DNA from: Phycisphaerales bacterium
Lineage (GTDB): Bacteria; Planctomycetota; Phycisphaerae; UBA1845
Length of the DNA stretch: 41,551 nt
Direction: 5' to 3'
Assembly: GCA_013140575.1 (NCBI GenBank)
Contig: JABFSN010000094.1
Span: 1 to 41,551 of the forward strand
Below the pieces are notes generated by a model that saw only the letters and a program-made list of their open reading frames with translations, had not been told where the DNA came from and searched no databases. This document shows positions 21,088 through 37,534 of this stretch, in pieces (the stretch's first letter is position 1; each line of letters opens with the position of its first letter). The translations under genes were made by a program, and so were the position numbers.

Positions 21088-22269
21088 CTACGGCCTGTAG
21101 GGCAGGTCGTGGATGGCTTTCCAGACTTCGAGGCCGAGTTTGGGGTCGTCGTTGATGTCGAGGAGGCCCAGGGAGCGGAAGTCGGGGTGGAGGTCGTCGG
21201 GCCGGCCGAGGTCGGGATCGAAGAGGCTGGCCCACGTGGCGAGTCGGACCTGGGACATGTTGTCGAGCAGACGGGCCATCAGGGCGACGTATTCGGCCTG
21301 GGCCTGCGGGGTGTGGACGGGGGCGAGCGGATCGCCGGGCCAGCCCATTTCGGTGAAGAGGATGTCGCGGGCGGTGTGCAGCTCGATGCGCGACAGGTAG
21401 TCGTCGGGAATGAGGATGGGGCGGATGAACAGCGGGAAAGGCAGTGTGGAGAAGGCCACCGCGTCCAGTTTCGGTTCGAACATGTCGATCAGGAACCAGT
21501 GCGGTTCGTGGTCGCTGAATGCGTCGAGGTCGGTGAAGAAGCCCTGCATGGATTCGAGATTGAACGCGGCGATGACCTGCACCTGGGGGGCGGCGGCCTT
21601 GATTTCGTCGTAGGTTTCGTGGTGCAGGGCGACGAAGTTCAGGAAATCGTCGGGATGCGCTTCGTAGTAGCCGTTGATTTCCACGCCGAGCGACAGATAG
21701 GTCGGGCGCAACTGGATGGCCGCCTGAAGGGCCATGCGTTTGATGGGTTCGGTGACCAACGGGTCGGAAAAATCGCGGCCTTGCAATTCAGGCGGCAGGT
21801 GGCCGACGTTGCGGCGGTCGGACACGGGGTCGATCTCGATGACGATGCAGTCGTTGCCGCGCTCGCGGGTGCGGTTGACGGCGGCGACGAGGTCGTCGAT
21901 CAACTGGTTGTCGCCGTCGGGGCCGAATGCTTCCCAGTCCATGCGCGGTCGGGCGACGAAACAATCGGAATAGTCGGTGGCGGTTTCGACGCGGCGCAGC
22001 AGACGGACGCCCTGGTCGAAGGTGTTGGTGGAGACGGCCACGGGGACGACTCCGGTTTTGTAGCGTCGTTCGACGGCGTGCACGGTGCGATCGAGCAGCA
22101 CTTCGGGGACGGAACGGAAGGTGATGCCGGCGGCGTCGGAGGCGCCGTCGCCGGGCAAATCGTCGGGGCGCATGACGCAGGCGAGGCCGGACAACAGGAG
22201 GAACGACGCGGCGCAAGCGAATACGGCGTCGGGTCGAAGACCCGATCTGCAACTTCGTCGGGGTGGCAC
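21088..22269 (-). CDS. Predicted TIM-barrel glycosidase, tandem paralogue 1
   Basis: This protein of about 393 residues is presumably exported: from the GTG at 22269 it begins with basic residues and a hydrophobic run ending in LLLSGLAC, a possible lipoprotein signal. The remaining protein is a TIM-barrel-like domain homologous to the next two minus-strand genes. LSLGVEINGYY and DILFTEMGWPG supply two Glu in the relative positions of acid/base and nucleophile in clan-A retaining glycoside hydrolases, and EPHWFLIDMFEPKLDAVAFS lies between them. It lacks the EWW and QQWQN N-terminal motifs of its sisters and is the most diverged. The start codon lies inside a palindromic repeat and has no ribosome-binding site, so the start is uncertain. 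The enzyme class and substrate are inferred. Confidence 0.75.
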   Translation of the reverse strand: MPPRRSCRSGLRPDAVFACAASFLLLSGLACVMRPDDLPGDGASDAAGITFRSVPEVLLDRTVHAVERRYKTGVVPVAVSTNTFDQGVRLLRRVETATDYSDCFVARPRMDWEAFGPDGDNQLIDDLVAAVNRTRERGNDCIVIEIDPVSDRRNVGHLPPELQGRDFSDPLVTEPIKRMALQAAIQLRPTYLSLGVEINGYYEAHPDDFLNFVALHHETYDEIKAAAPQVQVIAAFNLESMQGFFTDLDAFSDHEPHWFLIDMFEPKLDAVAFSTLPFPLFIRPILIPDDYLSRIELHTARDILFTEMGWPGDPLAPVHTPQAQAEYVALMARLLDNMSQVRLATWASLFDPDLGRPDDLHPDFRSLGLLDINDDPKLGLEVWKAIHDLPYRP

Positions 22270-22646
22270 GGACAGCGGTACGTACGTGTTTAGCGTCTTT
22301 TTGGGTTGTCCGCCGCAGGCAGACCTGAGTGTAGCCCCGCGTTTCAACGCGGGGTATGCCCGAGACGCCATGGCGCCTAGTCCCGAAGGGACGGCTGAAA
22401 CCCCACGGAGCGATTCAGCCGTCCCTTCGGGACTATGGGCTCCCGGCGGTGCCGTCATCCCAGCACTGAAGTGCTGGGCTACATTCACAGCGTCCCCAAG
22501 GGACGCTAAACACATACTCGGTACTCCGTTGACCGTGGATGCGCGATTCAGCGCTCGAACGATTCGAAGCACAATCGCACTTCGCCGCGGGCAAGCGAGT
22601 ACGCTTGCCCATGCCACCCAAGCGATCAGACGCCGGGTTGCACTAG
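22262..22646. mobile_element. MITE-like palindromic element, copy 1, interrupted by a second element
   Basis: The left end is GGGTGGCACGGACAGCGG at 22262. The right end has the GGGCAAGCG/CGCTTGCCC hairpin (22589-22610), GCCACCC, and CTAG at 22643-22646. The left hairpin is split after CGGTAC (22276-22281) and resumes at a second CGGTAC (22519-22524). The right CTAG is shared with copy 2, so the copies are in tandem. Coordinates of the left end are approximate because it runs into the glycosidase gene. Confidence 0.65.
22282..22518. mobile_element. Nested repeat element with own inverted ends
   Basis: The segment begins GTACGTGTTTAGCGTC (22282-22297) and ends in the complement of GTATGTGTTTAGCGTC (22502-22517), a 16-base inverted repeat with one mismatch. 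It is flanked by CGGTAC on both sides. Inside are three strong hairpins: CCCCGCG/CGCGGGG (22335-22354), a perfect 21-base stem between 22379-22399 and 22414-22434, and CCCAGCAC/GTGCTGGG with a TGAA loop (22459-22478). It contains no transposase, so it would depend on an enzyme supplied elsewhere. Confidence 0.65.
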
Positions 22647-22820
22647 TGTTGTGACGCAGATTAAGTTTCGCGTCGGGTGGCACGGACAACGGTACTCCGT
22701 TGTCCGTGTGAAACCCGCCAGCGCGTTGAAATCGCAGTCGAGGCCGAAAGTCGGAGATCACGGGCAAGCGAGTACGCTTGCCCGTGCCACCCCGAAAAAT
22801 TAGGTGTGACGGAACACTAG
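22643..22820. mobile_element. MITE-like palindromic element, copy 2 (complete)
   Basis: This 178-bp element is bounded by CTAG at both ends (22643-22646 and 22817-22820) with imperfect terminal inverted repeats of roughly 40 bases (CTAGTGTT... to ...GGGTGGCACGG). The body has two hairpins: CGGACAACGG/CCGTTGTCCG with a TACT loop near 22683-22706, and GGGCAAGCG/CGCTTGCCC with an AGTA loop near 22762-22783. It has no coding capacity. The right CTAG includes the stop codon of the adjacent minus-strand gene. Confidence 0.75.
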
Positions 22821-25159
22821 CGGTCGGACCATAACGTGCGCCAGACATCGAAAGCCTCCCGCGGTTTCCCCTGCAAATCGACCAGGCCCAGGGAATCGAA
22901 AAACGGCCCGAACCCGGTGGTGTCGGTCCAGAAGAAGTAGTTCACTAATAATAGGTTCATGTCCCGGGTCAATTCATCAAAGCGCGTCAGAAATTCGGCC
23001 TGGTCCGCAGTCGAGCTCCCGAACGTAGCGGACGGGGACCATCCCAGTTCCGAAAAAATGATGGGTTTGTCGGTGAAATCGAGGATTCGGGAGTAATAAT
23101 CGGCCGGGAGCAGATCCGGGTCGCTGAATTGCGTGGGGATGAACGAAACCAGCGGGTAGGACGATAACGCGACGGCGTCCTGATACGGTTCGAACATTTC
23201 GATCAGGTTCCAGTGGGGGTCGTGGATGGTCTGGTCGCCCAATCCGCCCCAGCGCCCCAGCAGTTGCTCGTATTGAAACGACACGAACACCAGGGTGTCG
23301 GGCAGGATGCCCTTGATCGCGTCGCGCAACTCGATGAACAGGGACAGGAAGTTTTCGAAGTCGTCCGGCTGCTGCTCGAAATAGGCGTTGATTTCCATGG
23401 CCAGACAGACGTACCGCGGTCGGTACCACAACACGCGCTGAACCACTTCGGTCATGTAGGACTCGCGTACGCCGGCCGAGGCAAACGTCTGGTCGGCCAG
23501 TTCCGGCGGCAGGCGATCGGTTAGCGGGCCGGATCGCGGTGGGCGATAAGGATCGATCTGCAGGAAAAAGCTGCTGCGCGTGCGTGTGGCCAAAATGTTC
23601 TGCCATTGCTGATCGCGGAAGACGTTGGACCGGGTCAGACCGCCGGTGGCGGGCCACCATTCGAGCGCTTCGGGCAGGGTCAGCACGCCGTCGATGTCGC
23701 CGACGCGTTTGTAGGATTCGTCGACGAAATCGGCGAGCCATATGCGCGGCACGGGCACGGATGTTCGCACGACGCGGGCGGCCGTCGTTGATCGTTCGGC
23801 GGGCGGCAGCGTCGGAACGGTGTGACCGGTGACGATCAGATCGGGCAGTTCATCGCCGTCGACGTCGCCCACCGCGACGCGGCGCGGCGCACCCGCGACG
23901 CCGTGCTCGATGGGCGCGCCGAAACGGCCGGTTCCATCGTTTATCATGACCAGCACGGCCCGGCCGTCGGCGGTGGACGTCACCAGGTCGACGGCACCGT
24001 CGCCGTTCAAGTCGGCGGCGTCGAGGGTGGACGGTGCGTCGCCGACGGGCAGGCGGGCCACGTCGACCAGCAGTCCGCTGCCGTCGTTGCGTAGAATGGA
24101 GATGTCGCCGCTGCCGGTGTTGGCGGTGGCGGCGTCGGGGCTGCCGTCACCATTGAAATCGGCCACCACCAGCGCGGCGGGTCGTTCGCCGACGACGTAT
24201 TCGACCGATGAAAAGAACCTGCCCTCGCCGTTGTTGTAGAGAGCGGAGACGGTGTTTCCCAAACCGCCGGCGGTGATCAGGTCGAGGGCGCCGTCGCCGT
24301 TGAGGTCGGCGGCGATCAGCTCGTCGGGCCAGATGCCGACCTCGTAGAAATTGAGGGAGACGCCGCCGAGGCTGCCGATGACCGCGACGGTGCGGTCGAA
24401 GCGGTTGACCGTGGCGATGTCGGGGATGGCGTCGCCGTCGAGATTCAGCAGGCGGACGCGGTCGACCAACCGCCCGACGGGCACCTCCTCGACCTCTTCA
24501 AATACGCCTTCGCCGTCGTTCAACAGGATGGAAATCGAGCCGGGGCGGGAATTGGCGGTGATCAGATCGGGAAAACCATCGACGCTGATGTCGCCGACGG
24601 CGACGTAGACGGGGCTTTCGGCCACGGGCAGGTTGACCGCGTCGTCAAACGTACCGTCGGCGTGGTTGAACAGCAGGCTGATGTCGTCGCTACGGGCGTT
24701 GCAGACCACCAGATCGTTCGAGCCGTCGCCGTTCAGATCGTGGGCGATGACGTGGACGGGATCCTCGCCGACGGGGTATAGCACGCGAGGCAGGAATCCT
24801 CCGGCGCCGTTGTTGCGATGCACCGAAATCGTCCCGGCATGGAGGTCGGCGAGTACCAGATCGGGGGTGTCGTCGTCGTTCAAATCGACGAGCAACGGAT
24901 AGTGCGGGTCGTCGCCGTCGGCGTCGTCGACGCGCACGTCAAACGAGCCGCCGCCGACGTTTTTCAGGAGCGCCACCGGAAACGCGGGTGAATCATCGAC
25001 GTTGGCGTTGTCGTTCGCGTTGCCGTTGCCCGGGTCGTCGTCGTTGCCCGGCGGCGCAGGGCTGCATCCGGTGGCGCAGGCGATCAGCGCCGTGGCCGCG
25101 ACGCCGCACAATAGCAAGCGGGAGAAAACGTGGCATGTGCTTCCAGCCCATGATTTCAC
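22817..25159 (-). CDS. Lipoprotein: FG-GAP/VCBS beta-propeller fused to predicted glycosidase, paralogue 2
   Basis: From the GTG at 25159 the protein has about 780 residues. The N-terminus is a clear lipoprotein signal (hydrophobic run, then ALIACATGC with lipid Cys at 32), followed by an Asn/Asp/Gly linker. Residues about 50-470 contain eight FG-GAP/VCBS-type blades with Ca2+-binding D-x-N-x-D-G-x-x-D motifs (DLNGDGSNDLV, DFNGDGSPDAA, DLNGDGAVDLV), an integrin-alpha-like propeller. Residues about 480-780 are the TIM-barrel domain shared with both neighbours: LEWWPATG, DQQWQN, LAMEINAYF (likely acid/base Glu), HDPHWNLIEMFEPYQDAVAL and IIFSELGWSP (likely nucleophile Glu). The start codon is supplied by a palindromic repeat array and lacks a ribosome-binding site. 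The propeller may bind a polymer or mediate surface docking. Confidence 0.85.
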   Translation of the reverse strand: MKSWAGSTCHVFSRLLLCGVAATALIACATGCSPAPPGNDDDPGNGNANDNANVDDSPAFPVALLKNVGGGSFDVRVDDADGDDPHYPLLVDLNDDDTPDLVLADLHAGTISVHRNNGAGGFLPRVLYPVGEDPVHVIAHDLNGDGSNDLVVCNARSDDISLLFNHADGTFDDAVNLPVAESPVYVAVGDISVDGFPDLITANSRPGSISILLNDGEGVFEEVEEVPVGRLVDRVRLLNLDGDAIPDIATVNRFDRTVAVIGSLGGVSLNFYEVGIWPDELIAADLNGDGALDLITAGGLGNTVSALYNNGEGRFFSSVEYVVGERPAALVVADFNGDGSPDAATANTGSGDISILRNDGSGLLVDVARLPVGDAPSTLDAADLNGDGAVDLVTSTADGRAVLVMINDGTGRFGAPIEHGVAGAPRRVAVGDVDGDELPDLIVTGHTVPTLPPAERSTTAARVVRTSVPVPRIWLADFVDESYKRVGDIDGVLTLPEALEWWPATGGLTRSNVFRDQQWQNILATRTRSSFFLQIDPYRPPRSGPLTDRLPPELADQTFASAGVRESYMTEVVQRVLWYRPRYVCLAMEINAYFEQQPDDFENFLSLFIELRDAIKGILPDTLVFVSFQYEQLLGRWGGLGDQTIHDPHWNLIEMFEPYQDAVALSSYPLVSFIPTQFSDPDLLPADYYSRILDFTDKPIIFSELGWSPSATFGSSTADQAEFLTRFDELTRDMNLLLVNYFFWTDTTGFGPFFDSLGLVDLQGKPREAFDVWRTLWSDR

Positions 25160-25245
25160 GGGCAGGATGCCCGTGCCACGGAAGATCACGGGCAAGATGC
25201 CCGTGCCACGGATCGTCACGGGCGAGACGCCCGTGCCACGTGGGC
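25156..25245. repeat. Three tandem 30-bp palindromic repeats
   Basis: Units start at 25156, 25186 and 25216. Each holds CACGGGC-x(5)-GCCCGTG followed by CCACG. Copy 3 has compensating changes (CGAGACG in place of CAAGATG) that keep the stem intact. In the minus direction the open frame through the array reads repeated R-G-T-G-I-L-P-V. The stem sequence resembles the second hairpin of the CTAG element. The array fills the gap between two paralogous glycosidase genes. Confidence 0.9.
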
Positions 25246-25250
25246 GGCGG

Positions 25251-26294
25251 CTATTCGTTCCACATCGATTTCCAGACATCGAGCGCCTTTTTTGGATTCC
25301 CGGCGGAATCGAGCAACCCCATGGAACTGAAAACAGGTCCGAACCCCTGCACATCATACAGGAAATAGTAGTTCACTAACAGCAGGTTCATTCCGTCGGT
25401 CAGCTTGCCGAATCGCCGCAGGAACGCGGCCTGGCGCTCCTGCGAGCCGCCGTACTTGTCGTCGCTGGCGTATCCCAGTTCGGCGAACACGATCGGTTTT
25501 TTGGTGTGGGCGGACACGCGCGAATAGTAATCGTCGGGCAAGTCGGCCGGGTCGCCGAAGCGCGGCGGGTTCATGCCCTCCATCGGATAGGACGACAGAC
25601 CGAATGCATCGACGTGCGGCTCGAATTTCTCGAACAGGTGCCATTGCGGTTCGTGTTTGTGCCGCGGGCCCAGTTCGGGGTAGCGGCCCAGCAGCGACTC
25701 GTATTGAAACGAAACCAGCACGACGGCGTCGGGTTTGATTTTCTTGATTTCGTTGCGGGTCTCGACGAACAGGGAAATGAAATTGTCGAAATCGTCGGGC
25801 TGTTCATCGTAGTAGGCGTTGATTTCCATGGCCAGGCATACCATCGACGCGTTGTACCACTTCACGCGGGCGACGGATTCGGCGATGAACGCCTGCCGGA
25901 CCGCGGGCGATGCAAACGTCTGATCTTTCAGTTTGTCGGGCAGTCGTTTGGACAACGGTCCCGTGCGCGGCGGGGCGTAGGGGTCCAATTGAATGAACAC
26001 GTTCAGCTTGTGCTGCTGGATCAGATAGTTTTGCCACTGTTGATTCTGATACGTCCGGGATTTTTCCGGCGCCGCGTCTGTGGCGTGCCACCATTCGAGC
26101 GGGTCGGTCAGGCTGATCCAGTCGACGGTCTCGTCGGCGGTTTTGAACGCCTTGAACATACCGTCCTGGTCCCAACTGGGCGGCGTGGGGACGTTGGAGC
26201 GAATGACCGGCGGTTTGGGATCGATGGGCGGGTCGCCATTGGCGGATCCATTCGCCGAAATCACCATACACGCCACCGCCGGACAGAAACGCAA
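25251..26294 (-). CDS. Predicted TIM-barrel glycosidase, tandem paralogue 3
   Basis: The protein has about 347 residues from the TTG at 26294 and is probably exported through a short signal-like start (MRFCPAVACMVISANGSANG). The ATG at 26269 is an alternative; the longer frame to 26513 runs through palindromic repeats and is not protein-like. It consists only of the catalytic-type domain: LEWWHATD, NQQWQN, IQLDPYAPPRTGPL, LAMEINAYY, HEPQWHLFEKFEPHVDAFGL, PIVFAELGYAS and a C-terminal LLVNYYFLYDVQGFGP. The paired Glu in MEIN and AELG match retaining clan-A glycosidases. It is closest to the C-terminal half of the neighbouring propeller fusion, so one probably arose from the other by duplication. 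The substrate is unknown. Confidence 0.82.
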   Translation of the reverse strand: MRFCPAVACMVISANGSANGDPPIDPKPPVIRSNVPTPPSWDQDGMFKAFKTADETVDWISLTDPLEWWHATDAAPEKSRTYQNQQWQNYLIQQHKLNVFIQLDPYAPPRTGPLSKRLPDKLKDQTFASPAVRQAFIAESVARVKWYNASMVCLAMEINAYYDEQPDDFDNFISLFVETRNEIKKIKPDAVVLVSFQYESLLGRYPELGPRHKHEPQWHLFEKFEPHVDAFGLSSYPMEGMNPPRFGDPADLPDDYYSRVSAHTKKPIVFAELGYASDDKYGGSQERQAAFLRRFGKLTDGMNLLLVNYYFLYDVQGFGPVFSSMGLLDSAGNPKKALDVWKSMWNE

Positions 26295-26748
26295 GAACGG
26301 GAAACCGAGTTCGTCCGCCCTCCGGGCGGGAGGAACGGAGGGAAGCCCCATCCGGGGGCTGAAGCCCCCGGCTATGATCGCGCGCCCTCCGGGCGGGGAA
26401 TCGGACGCTACGAAGGTTTCATGCGGCCCGCCACTCGCGTGGCGGGTTCTGATCATGGCACCCGACCCGAGTGTTGGAGTGCGGCGGACGATTGATGCGA
26501 GGCAACGCTTCATTTCGTCATTCCCGCGCGTCGCGCGAATCTACAAACAGGACGGCCGGCACGATCCGTCGCGCGGACCCCCGCGCCGCCGGTCATTATA
26601 GCGGTCGCCAAGGTTCCGGCAGCGCGGCGGGCGGTGGTCGAATGGGCGGGTCGCCGTGCCGGATCGGCGGGTGAATCCCGCCCTGCATGACTACCCGGTG
26701 GTGAAGGTTCTGAATCGGACGATGAACCTCGCCGTGCCGAAATGGGAA
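26295..26748. other. Intergenic region with palindromic repeats between murD and glycosidase 3
   Basis: No gene is supported. The left half (about 26317-26460) is a cluster of hairpins: CCGGGGGC/GCCCCCGG with a TGAA loop (26352-26371), CCCGCCAC/GTGGCGGG (26427-26446), and two copies of GCCCTCCGGGCGGG (about 26317 and 26384). The TGAA-loop hairpin has the same design as the one at 22459-22478. The right half holds a possible minus-strand -10 box and nothing else I can recognise. Confidence 0.6.
26595..26600 (-). promoter_or_regulatory. Possible -10 box for the glycosidase cluster
   Basis: On the minus strand this is a perfect TATAAT, rare in such GC-rich DNA, in the gap upstream of the three glycosidase genes. 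No good -35 hexamer stands 16-18 bases upstream, so the call rests on the -10 match and position alone. Confidence 0.3.
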
Positions 26749-37391: not shown

Positions 37392-37534
37392 GGGTGGCAC
37401 GGACAACGGTACGCCGTTGTCCGTGTGCGGCCGGCGTGCGTGGAGGCATCGAGTCGCGTGCAGGAACCGAAGACCATGGGCAAGCGAGTACGCTTGCCCG
37501 TGCCACCCAACCATCAGGCGCGACGGACCGCTAG
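37392..37534. mobile_element. MITE-like palindromic element, copy 3
   Basis: GGGTGGCACGGACAACGG at 37392 opens the CGGACAACGG/CCGTTGTCCG hairpin. A variable middle of about 45 bases follows, then the GGGCAAGCG/CGCTTGCCC hairpin, GTGCCACCC (to 37508) and a conserved tail ending in CTAG at 37531-37534. The left terminal repeat beyond 37392 is weak. The CTAG contains the stop codon of the small minus-strand gene next to it, as in copy 2. No coding capacity. Confidence 0.75.

Follow-up and report, generated by a model that had tools for sequence, protein, structure and literature searches.

The 237-base segment that interrupts a palindromic repeat in the window (the whole analysed stretch of 41,551 nt from a Phycisphaerales bacterium, contig JABFSN010000094.1) is, with a probability of about 0.88, an IS66-type MITE moved in trans by an IS66-family transposase that picks the tips of hairpins as its targets, including hairpins of sister elements, so that nests arise. 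The coordinate check located CGGTAC at 22276–22281 and again at 22519–22524, with 237 bases between them and 16-base inverted ends, exactly as the initial annotation had reported. The segment is classed as an IS66-type MITE because its ends and its 8-bp duplication match those of IS66 elements; it is new in sequence and known in kind. The features of the locus are:

22261–22281, + strand: left part of copy 1 of the outer palindromic element (5' arm and loop of its hairpin 1), which aligns with 22675–22792 and 37392–37508
22274–22281, + strand: left copy of the 8-bp target duplication, AGCGGTAC, its length taken from 74 elements
22282–22517, + strand: IS66-type MITE of family A, 236 bp, ends GTAC...GTAC, from the alignment of 28 full-length copies
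22282–22297, + strand: left terminal inverted repeat GTACGTGTTTAGCGTC, read from the letters; the same ends occur on IS66 elements
22308–22324, + strand: MITE internal hairpin 0, 95% of cells paired in 28 copies
22335–22354, + strand: MITE internal hairpin 1, CCCCGCGTTTCAACGCGGGG; in sister copies a further IS, with CAGGATTTCGC ends, has entered its loop
22378–22435, + strand: MITE internal hairpin 2, with a long arm containing CCCGAAGGGACGGCTGAA, 12 of 22 pairs invariant in 28 copies
22459–22478, + strand: MITE internal hairpin 3, CCCAGCACTGAAGTGCTGGG, 8 of 9 pairs invariant; nested MITEs lie here in sister copies
22459–22505, + strand: match to Rfam RF01687 (Acido-Lenti-1) below the cut-off, 33 bits against a gathering cut-off of 37
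22492–22504, + strand: MITE internal hairpin 4 at the right end, GTCCCCAAGGGAC
22502–22517, − strand: right terminal inverted repeat GTATGTGTTTAGCGTC, read as the reverse complement
22518–22524, + strand: right copy of the target duplication, decayed to T-CGGTAC (one base lost, one changed)
22525–22619, + strand: remainder of outer copy 1 (3' arm of hairpin 1, spacer, hairpin 2 and the CATGCCACCC end), from alignment and folding
22675–22792, + strand: outer copy 2, uninterrupted, from alignment and folding
37392–37508, + strand: outer copy 3, uninterrupted, from alignment and folding

The outer palindromic repeat is thus present in the window in three copies, of which only the first (22261–22619) is interrupted. 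Joining 22261–22281 to 22525–22619 yields 116 nt that align with the other two copies and fold into the same pair of hairpins, the first of them having two mismatched positions, which bears out the earlier proposal that the outer halves, once joined, restore the hairpin. The transposition-like movement claimed in the same annotation holds in so far as the segment entered an existing palindromic element and duplicated its target; it is not supported for the hairpins as the moving thing, the unit being bounded by IS66-type ends.

The sequence search of the source genome (a 5.05-Mb assembly in 268 contigs) identified 40 scored places that match the 237-base segment over its full or partial length, so that the expected further copies with such ends do exist. 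The 12-base end GTGTTTAGCGTC has 46 exact occurrences in this genome versus one for the reversed control; together with the copy number, this indicates that the segment in the window is more than a chance arrangement. The full-length copies of family A measure 234–239 bp, and the 28 of them that align have a mean column identity of 85%, with the window copy 93% identical to their consensus. The element is non-coding and carries no transposase gene in its 236 bp. Two further families in the same genome (~141–154 and 174–175 bp) have only the ends in common with family A, and GTACGTGWTTAGCG is found there 60 times exactly versus 0 in the reversed control. Ends of the form GTACGTG(T/A)TTAGCG bound short hairpin-rich elements both here and in other members of the order, where GTACGTGWTTAGCG ends are present in 27 of 114 genomes; of 392 genomes drawn from the whole phylum, only 2 contain GTACGTGTTTAGCG, the source genome included. 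Elements with GTACGTG ends in other genomes range from 77 to ~374 bp and are likewise rich in hairpins, with unrelated interiors. The mobile unit is defined by the pair of IS66-type inverted ends; the hairpins inside are cargo, and the interiors differ completely between families with common ends. The surroundings of unpaired ends (in G073, G085, G064, G041 and other genomes) yielded short elements only and no long, autonomous ones.

Five internal hairpins are kept across the copies of family A, with few compensatory changes; mean column identity is 0.97 in the hairpin arms, 0.91 in the terminal repeats and 0.80 in the linkers, and the covariation is weak (a term of ~0 in one test, a modest excess in another). 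Hairpin 3 of a sister copy harbors a nested family A copy at one locus (L078) and a family B copy at another (L074). The loop of hairpin 1 is occupied at 13 junctions in the source genome (L054, L041, L042, L024, L008, L017, L030, L043, L058 and L124–L127) by an IS that has inverted ends CAGGATTTCGC and is flanked by TTCA on either side; the junctions always read GTTTCA/CAGG or GTTGAA/CAGG (the slash marking the border), and both orientations occur. Contigs break at this IS, the body of which is missing from the assembly. A longer, autonomous version of family A had been considered for the contigs that break inside it and was rejected, the break corresponding to this second IS inside hairpin 1. 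Hairpin modules are also found alone in genomes that lack the exact ends (e.g. G055 and G096), which suggests that the modules may predate the MITE.

The length of the target duplication was determined by setting the element ends at GTAC on both sides and comparing flank identity for lengths from 4 to 12 with shuffled flanks. At length 8 the identity is 0.71 for 44 elements of the source genome and 0.78 for 30 elements of other genomes, while at lengths 4–7 and 9–12 all 74 elements remain at the shuffled level of ~0.28. By this peak the target duplication is 8 bp and not 6 bp as initially annotated; direct repeats do flank the other copies, at the longer length. The window copy's own duplication is imperfect, CGGTAC being the 6-bp core left over after the decay of an 8-mer. 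An intact 8-bp duplication, AACGGTAC, is seen in L037/L040, at the same kind of hairpin as the site in the window.

An 8-bp repeat and ends starting with GTA are typical of the IS66 family (PMC11946415); the MITE ends also begin with GTA, while the fuller canonical form GTAAGCG (PMC11946415) is absent from them. What ties the element to a transposase is the ends and the duplication length, and the lead came from a single contig-edge fragment (L175) and sequences related to it. In G026, an IS66 fragment terminates in GGCGCTAAACAGATAC about 24 bases past the stop codon. Its 90% relative L208 spans 1581 bp and is intact; this IS66 has perfect inverted ends of 16 bp, GTATCTGTTTAGCGCC, a duplication conserved at 7 of 8 positions and a protein of 475 aa (profile match to PF03050 with E = 1.6e-35). 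L211, a further IS66 from the same bacterial family, has the ends GTACGTGTTCAGCG and GTACGTGCTCAGCG and no clean target duplication; the proteins of both match PF03050 with E-values of ~1e-35 to 1e-34. Similar ends were found on an annotated IS66 element of a Deinococcus grandis plasmid (GTACGTGATTAGCG, at one end), on haloarchaeal ISH10 (GTACGTGTTTAGC; GTACGTGTTTAGCCCC in ISH10 and its haloarchaeal relatives), on a planctomycete autonomous IS66 (GTATCTGTTTAGCG) and on an annotated Planctomyces plasmid IS66 (GTAACTGATTAGCG). The GTACGTGWTTAGCG ends of the MITE agree with IS66 elements of Deinococcus, haloarchaea and Planctomycetota at 12–14 of 14 positions for at least one end, and most of the annotated plasmid elements from Deinococcus, haloarchaea and Planctomyces show perfect 8-bp duplications. 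The MITE resembles single-ORF IS66 elements (ISH10, ISNpe24 and the Deinococcus and Planctomyces relatives) in its terminal inverted repeats (GTACGTGTTTAGC / GTACGTGATTAGCG) and 8-bp duplications, but differs from them in coding for no transposase within its 236 bp and in its targets, which are hairpin tips. Across the order, however, the ends of most IS66 elements are of other kinds, as are those of most IS66 loci in MITE-rich genomes. No IS66 gene (PF03050) was detected in the source assembly, nor in G073, which is near complete and rich in MITE ends; the mobiliser of these MITEs may have been lost, gone extinct or remained unassembled.

Empty sites were rebuilt by joining the flanks of 52 elements, namely those whose duplication is retained at 6 or more of its 8 bases. 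In this set, which mixes several element families and is a non-random draw, a hairpin tip with a stem score of at least 6 (a simple count of our own, the same for sites and controls) falls within the duplicated 8-mer in 41 of 52 joined sites (79%), versus 7.6% of positions picked at random from these loci and 8.8% of positions 60–250 bp away; at a score of at least 8 the fractions are 52% for the joined sites and 2.1% for the near-neighbour positions (Fisher 3e-29). The two arms stem from opposite sides of the insert and therefore formed one hairpin before the insertion. Relative to the duplication centre, the loop centre is in most cases shifted by 3 to 3.5 nt to one side or the other and is hardly ever at 0, while sites aligned on the loop reveal no letter consensus. 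Hairpin targets are equally frequent in the source genome (23/30) and in its relatives (18/22), and in the window the hairpin of the outer element is itself the target. The same measure gave 0 of 13 distinct sites with a score of at least 6 for autonomous IS66 elements (L208, one Planctomyces plasmid, and others from Deinococcus, haloarchaea and an alphaproteobacterium), with no hairpin (score 1) at the L208 site; no autonomous element among the IS66 elements inspected has a demonstrated hairpin target. Searches of an open-access library brought up nothing relevant on IS66 MITEs, nor on IS66 elements that target hairpins.

The proposed scenario is that the non-autonomous MITE would be moved in trans by an IS66-family DDE transposase (single-ORF, ISH10-like) that would recognise the GTACGTG(T/A)TTAGCG inverted ends and make 8-bp staggered cuts. 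In this order of Planctomycetota the transposition machinery would pick hairpin-forming palindromes without any sequence requirement and join the element at the hairpin tip, the duplicated 8-mer then comprising the last 5–6 bases of one arm and 2–3 loop bases. Nests would form because the elements carry perfect hairpins, which serve as fresh targets. The enzyme may read the extruded or palindromic structure directly, and the internal hairpins may have been retained for that. We consider it fairly probable that a lineage-specific IS66-type transposase reads hairpins or cruciforms by their shape, independently of sequence, and joins its elements at a fixed offset from the tip, so that hairpin-bearing elements would create the sites they land in and multiply as nests.

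Or perhaps the targeting is merely apparent, and selection has removed those insertions of an IS66-type MITE that fell outside intergenic palindromes? This would agree with the autonomous IS66 elements found elsewhere, which ignore hairpins (0/13), and with the failure to find a hairpin-targeting transposase, but positions 60–250 bp away are also often intergenic and only ~9% of them have hairpins against 79% of the sites, selective survival leaves the constant position of the loop, ±3 to 3.5 nt off the duplication centre, unexplained, and the pattern recurs in several genera on unrelated interiors, all of which make this explanation unlikely. Even less credit can be given to a REP/REPIN-type palindrome that a RAYT (a REP-associated tyrosine transposase, Y1_Tnp) moves without truly duplicating the target: the interior does consist of REP-like hairpins and the source genome has 8 Y1_Tnp matches, yet this account is largely refuted by the strict 8-bp duplications, which go together with inverted ends common with IS66, and the same ends enclose different interiors, while G073 carries the elements with 0 Y1_Tnp matches. 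The 8 matches in the source genome (G000) are of the REP-associated type, so that these hairpins may also be used by a distinct system that mobilises REPs.

The least probable explanation is that the segment is an Acido-Lenti-1-like structured RNA gene amid coincidental repeats. It draws on the RF01687 matches above the cut-off in sister copies and on the better conservation of arms (0.97) than of linkers (0.80), but the target duplications, present on dozens of dispersed copies, refute it as a complete explanation, and there is little covariation and the window copy stays under the Rfam cut-off. An additional role as RNA within the mobile element is conceivable, but given the weak covariation we make no claim to one. 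Acido-Lenti-1 has been described as a candidate structured RNA (PMC2864571), whereas here RF01687 corresponds to a module of mobile elements: it scores above the cut-off in four copies of the source genome (37.3–45.1 bits) and in elements of two other genomes (up to 53.9 bits), and in the sister copies the match covers hairpin 3 and the right end. This suggests that at least some RF01687 matches are parts of mobile elements, and some members of the Acido-Lenti-1 family may be mobile palindromic repeats. RF01687 matches lie inside mobile elements at L037, L076, L005, L078, L161 and L082.

Accounts of how DDE transposases choose their targets usually invoke sequence or partner proteins, and hairpin repeats are often treated as static. 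Natural insertions that have only hairpin geometry in common offer a direct, countable test of structure-guided transposition, hairpin-tip insertions could serve as a probe for sites of palindrome extrusion in living cells, and the MITEs provide a concrete route for the spread and nesting of hairpin repeats in bacterial genomes. ISs that target REP palindromes are known in the IS3 (IS1397, ISKpn1, ISPsy8), IS110 (IS621, ISPpu9/10), IS4 (ISRm22), IS256 and IS5 families (PMC1525189), the text of which does not mention IS66. Like the MITE, they enter extragenic palindromes (in the case of ISRm22 at the symmetry axis), but their target is a conserved REP sequence (PMC1525189), whereas the MITE targets have hairpin geometry and no letter consensus. 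The REPIN/RAYT system (PMC3116915, PMC2817692) is similar in being short, dispersed, hairpin-rich and non-autonomous, but is attributed to tyrosine transposases, while the MITE has inverted ends and 8-bp duplications.

The insertion site in the window is intergenic, between two minus-strand genes, and no gene is evidently cut by the MITE. The gene for an FG-GAP protein adjoins the site and ends at 22817; the other flanking gene likely starts just left of 22260, as judged from a signal-peptide-like stretch in the translation. Three adjacent minus-strand genes in 21088–26513 have common repeated protein-coding blocks (21598–21690, 23312–23404 and 25743–25835) and are apparently paralogues, with FG-GAP repeats in the middle one. 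Near the start of the minus-strand FG-GAP gene, a 30-base unit beginning with TCACGGGCAGGATGCCCGTGCCACGG is repeated three times head-to-tail (25156–25245), each unit forming a small hairpin.
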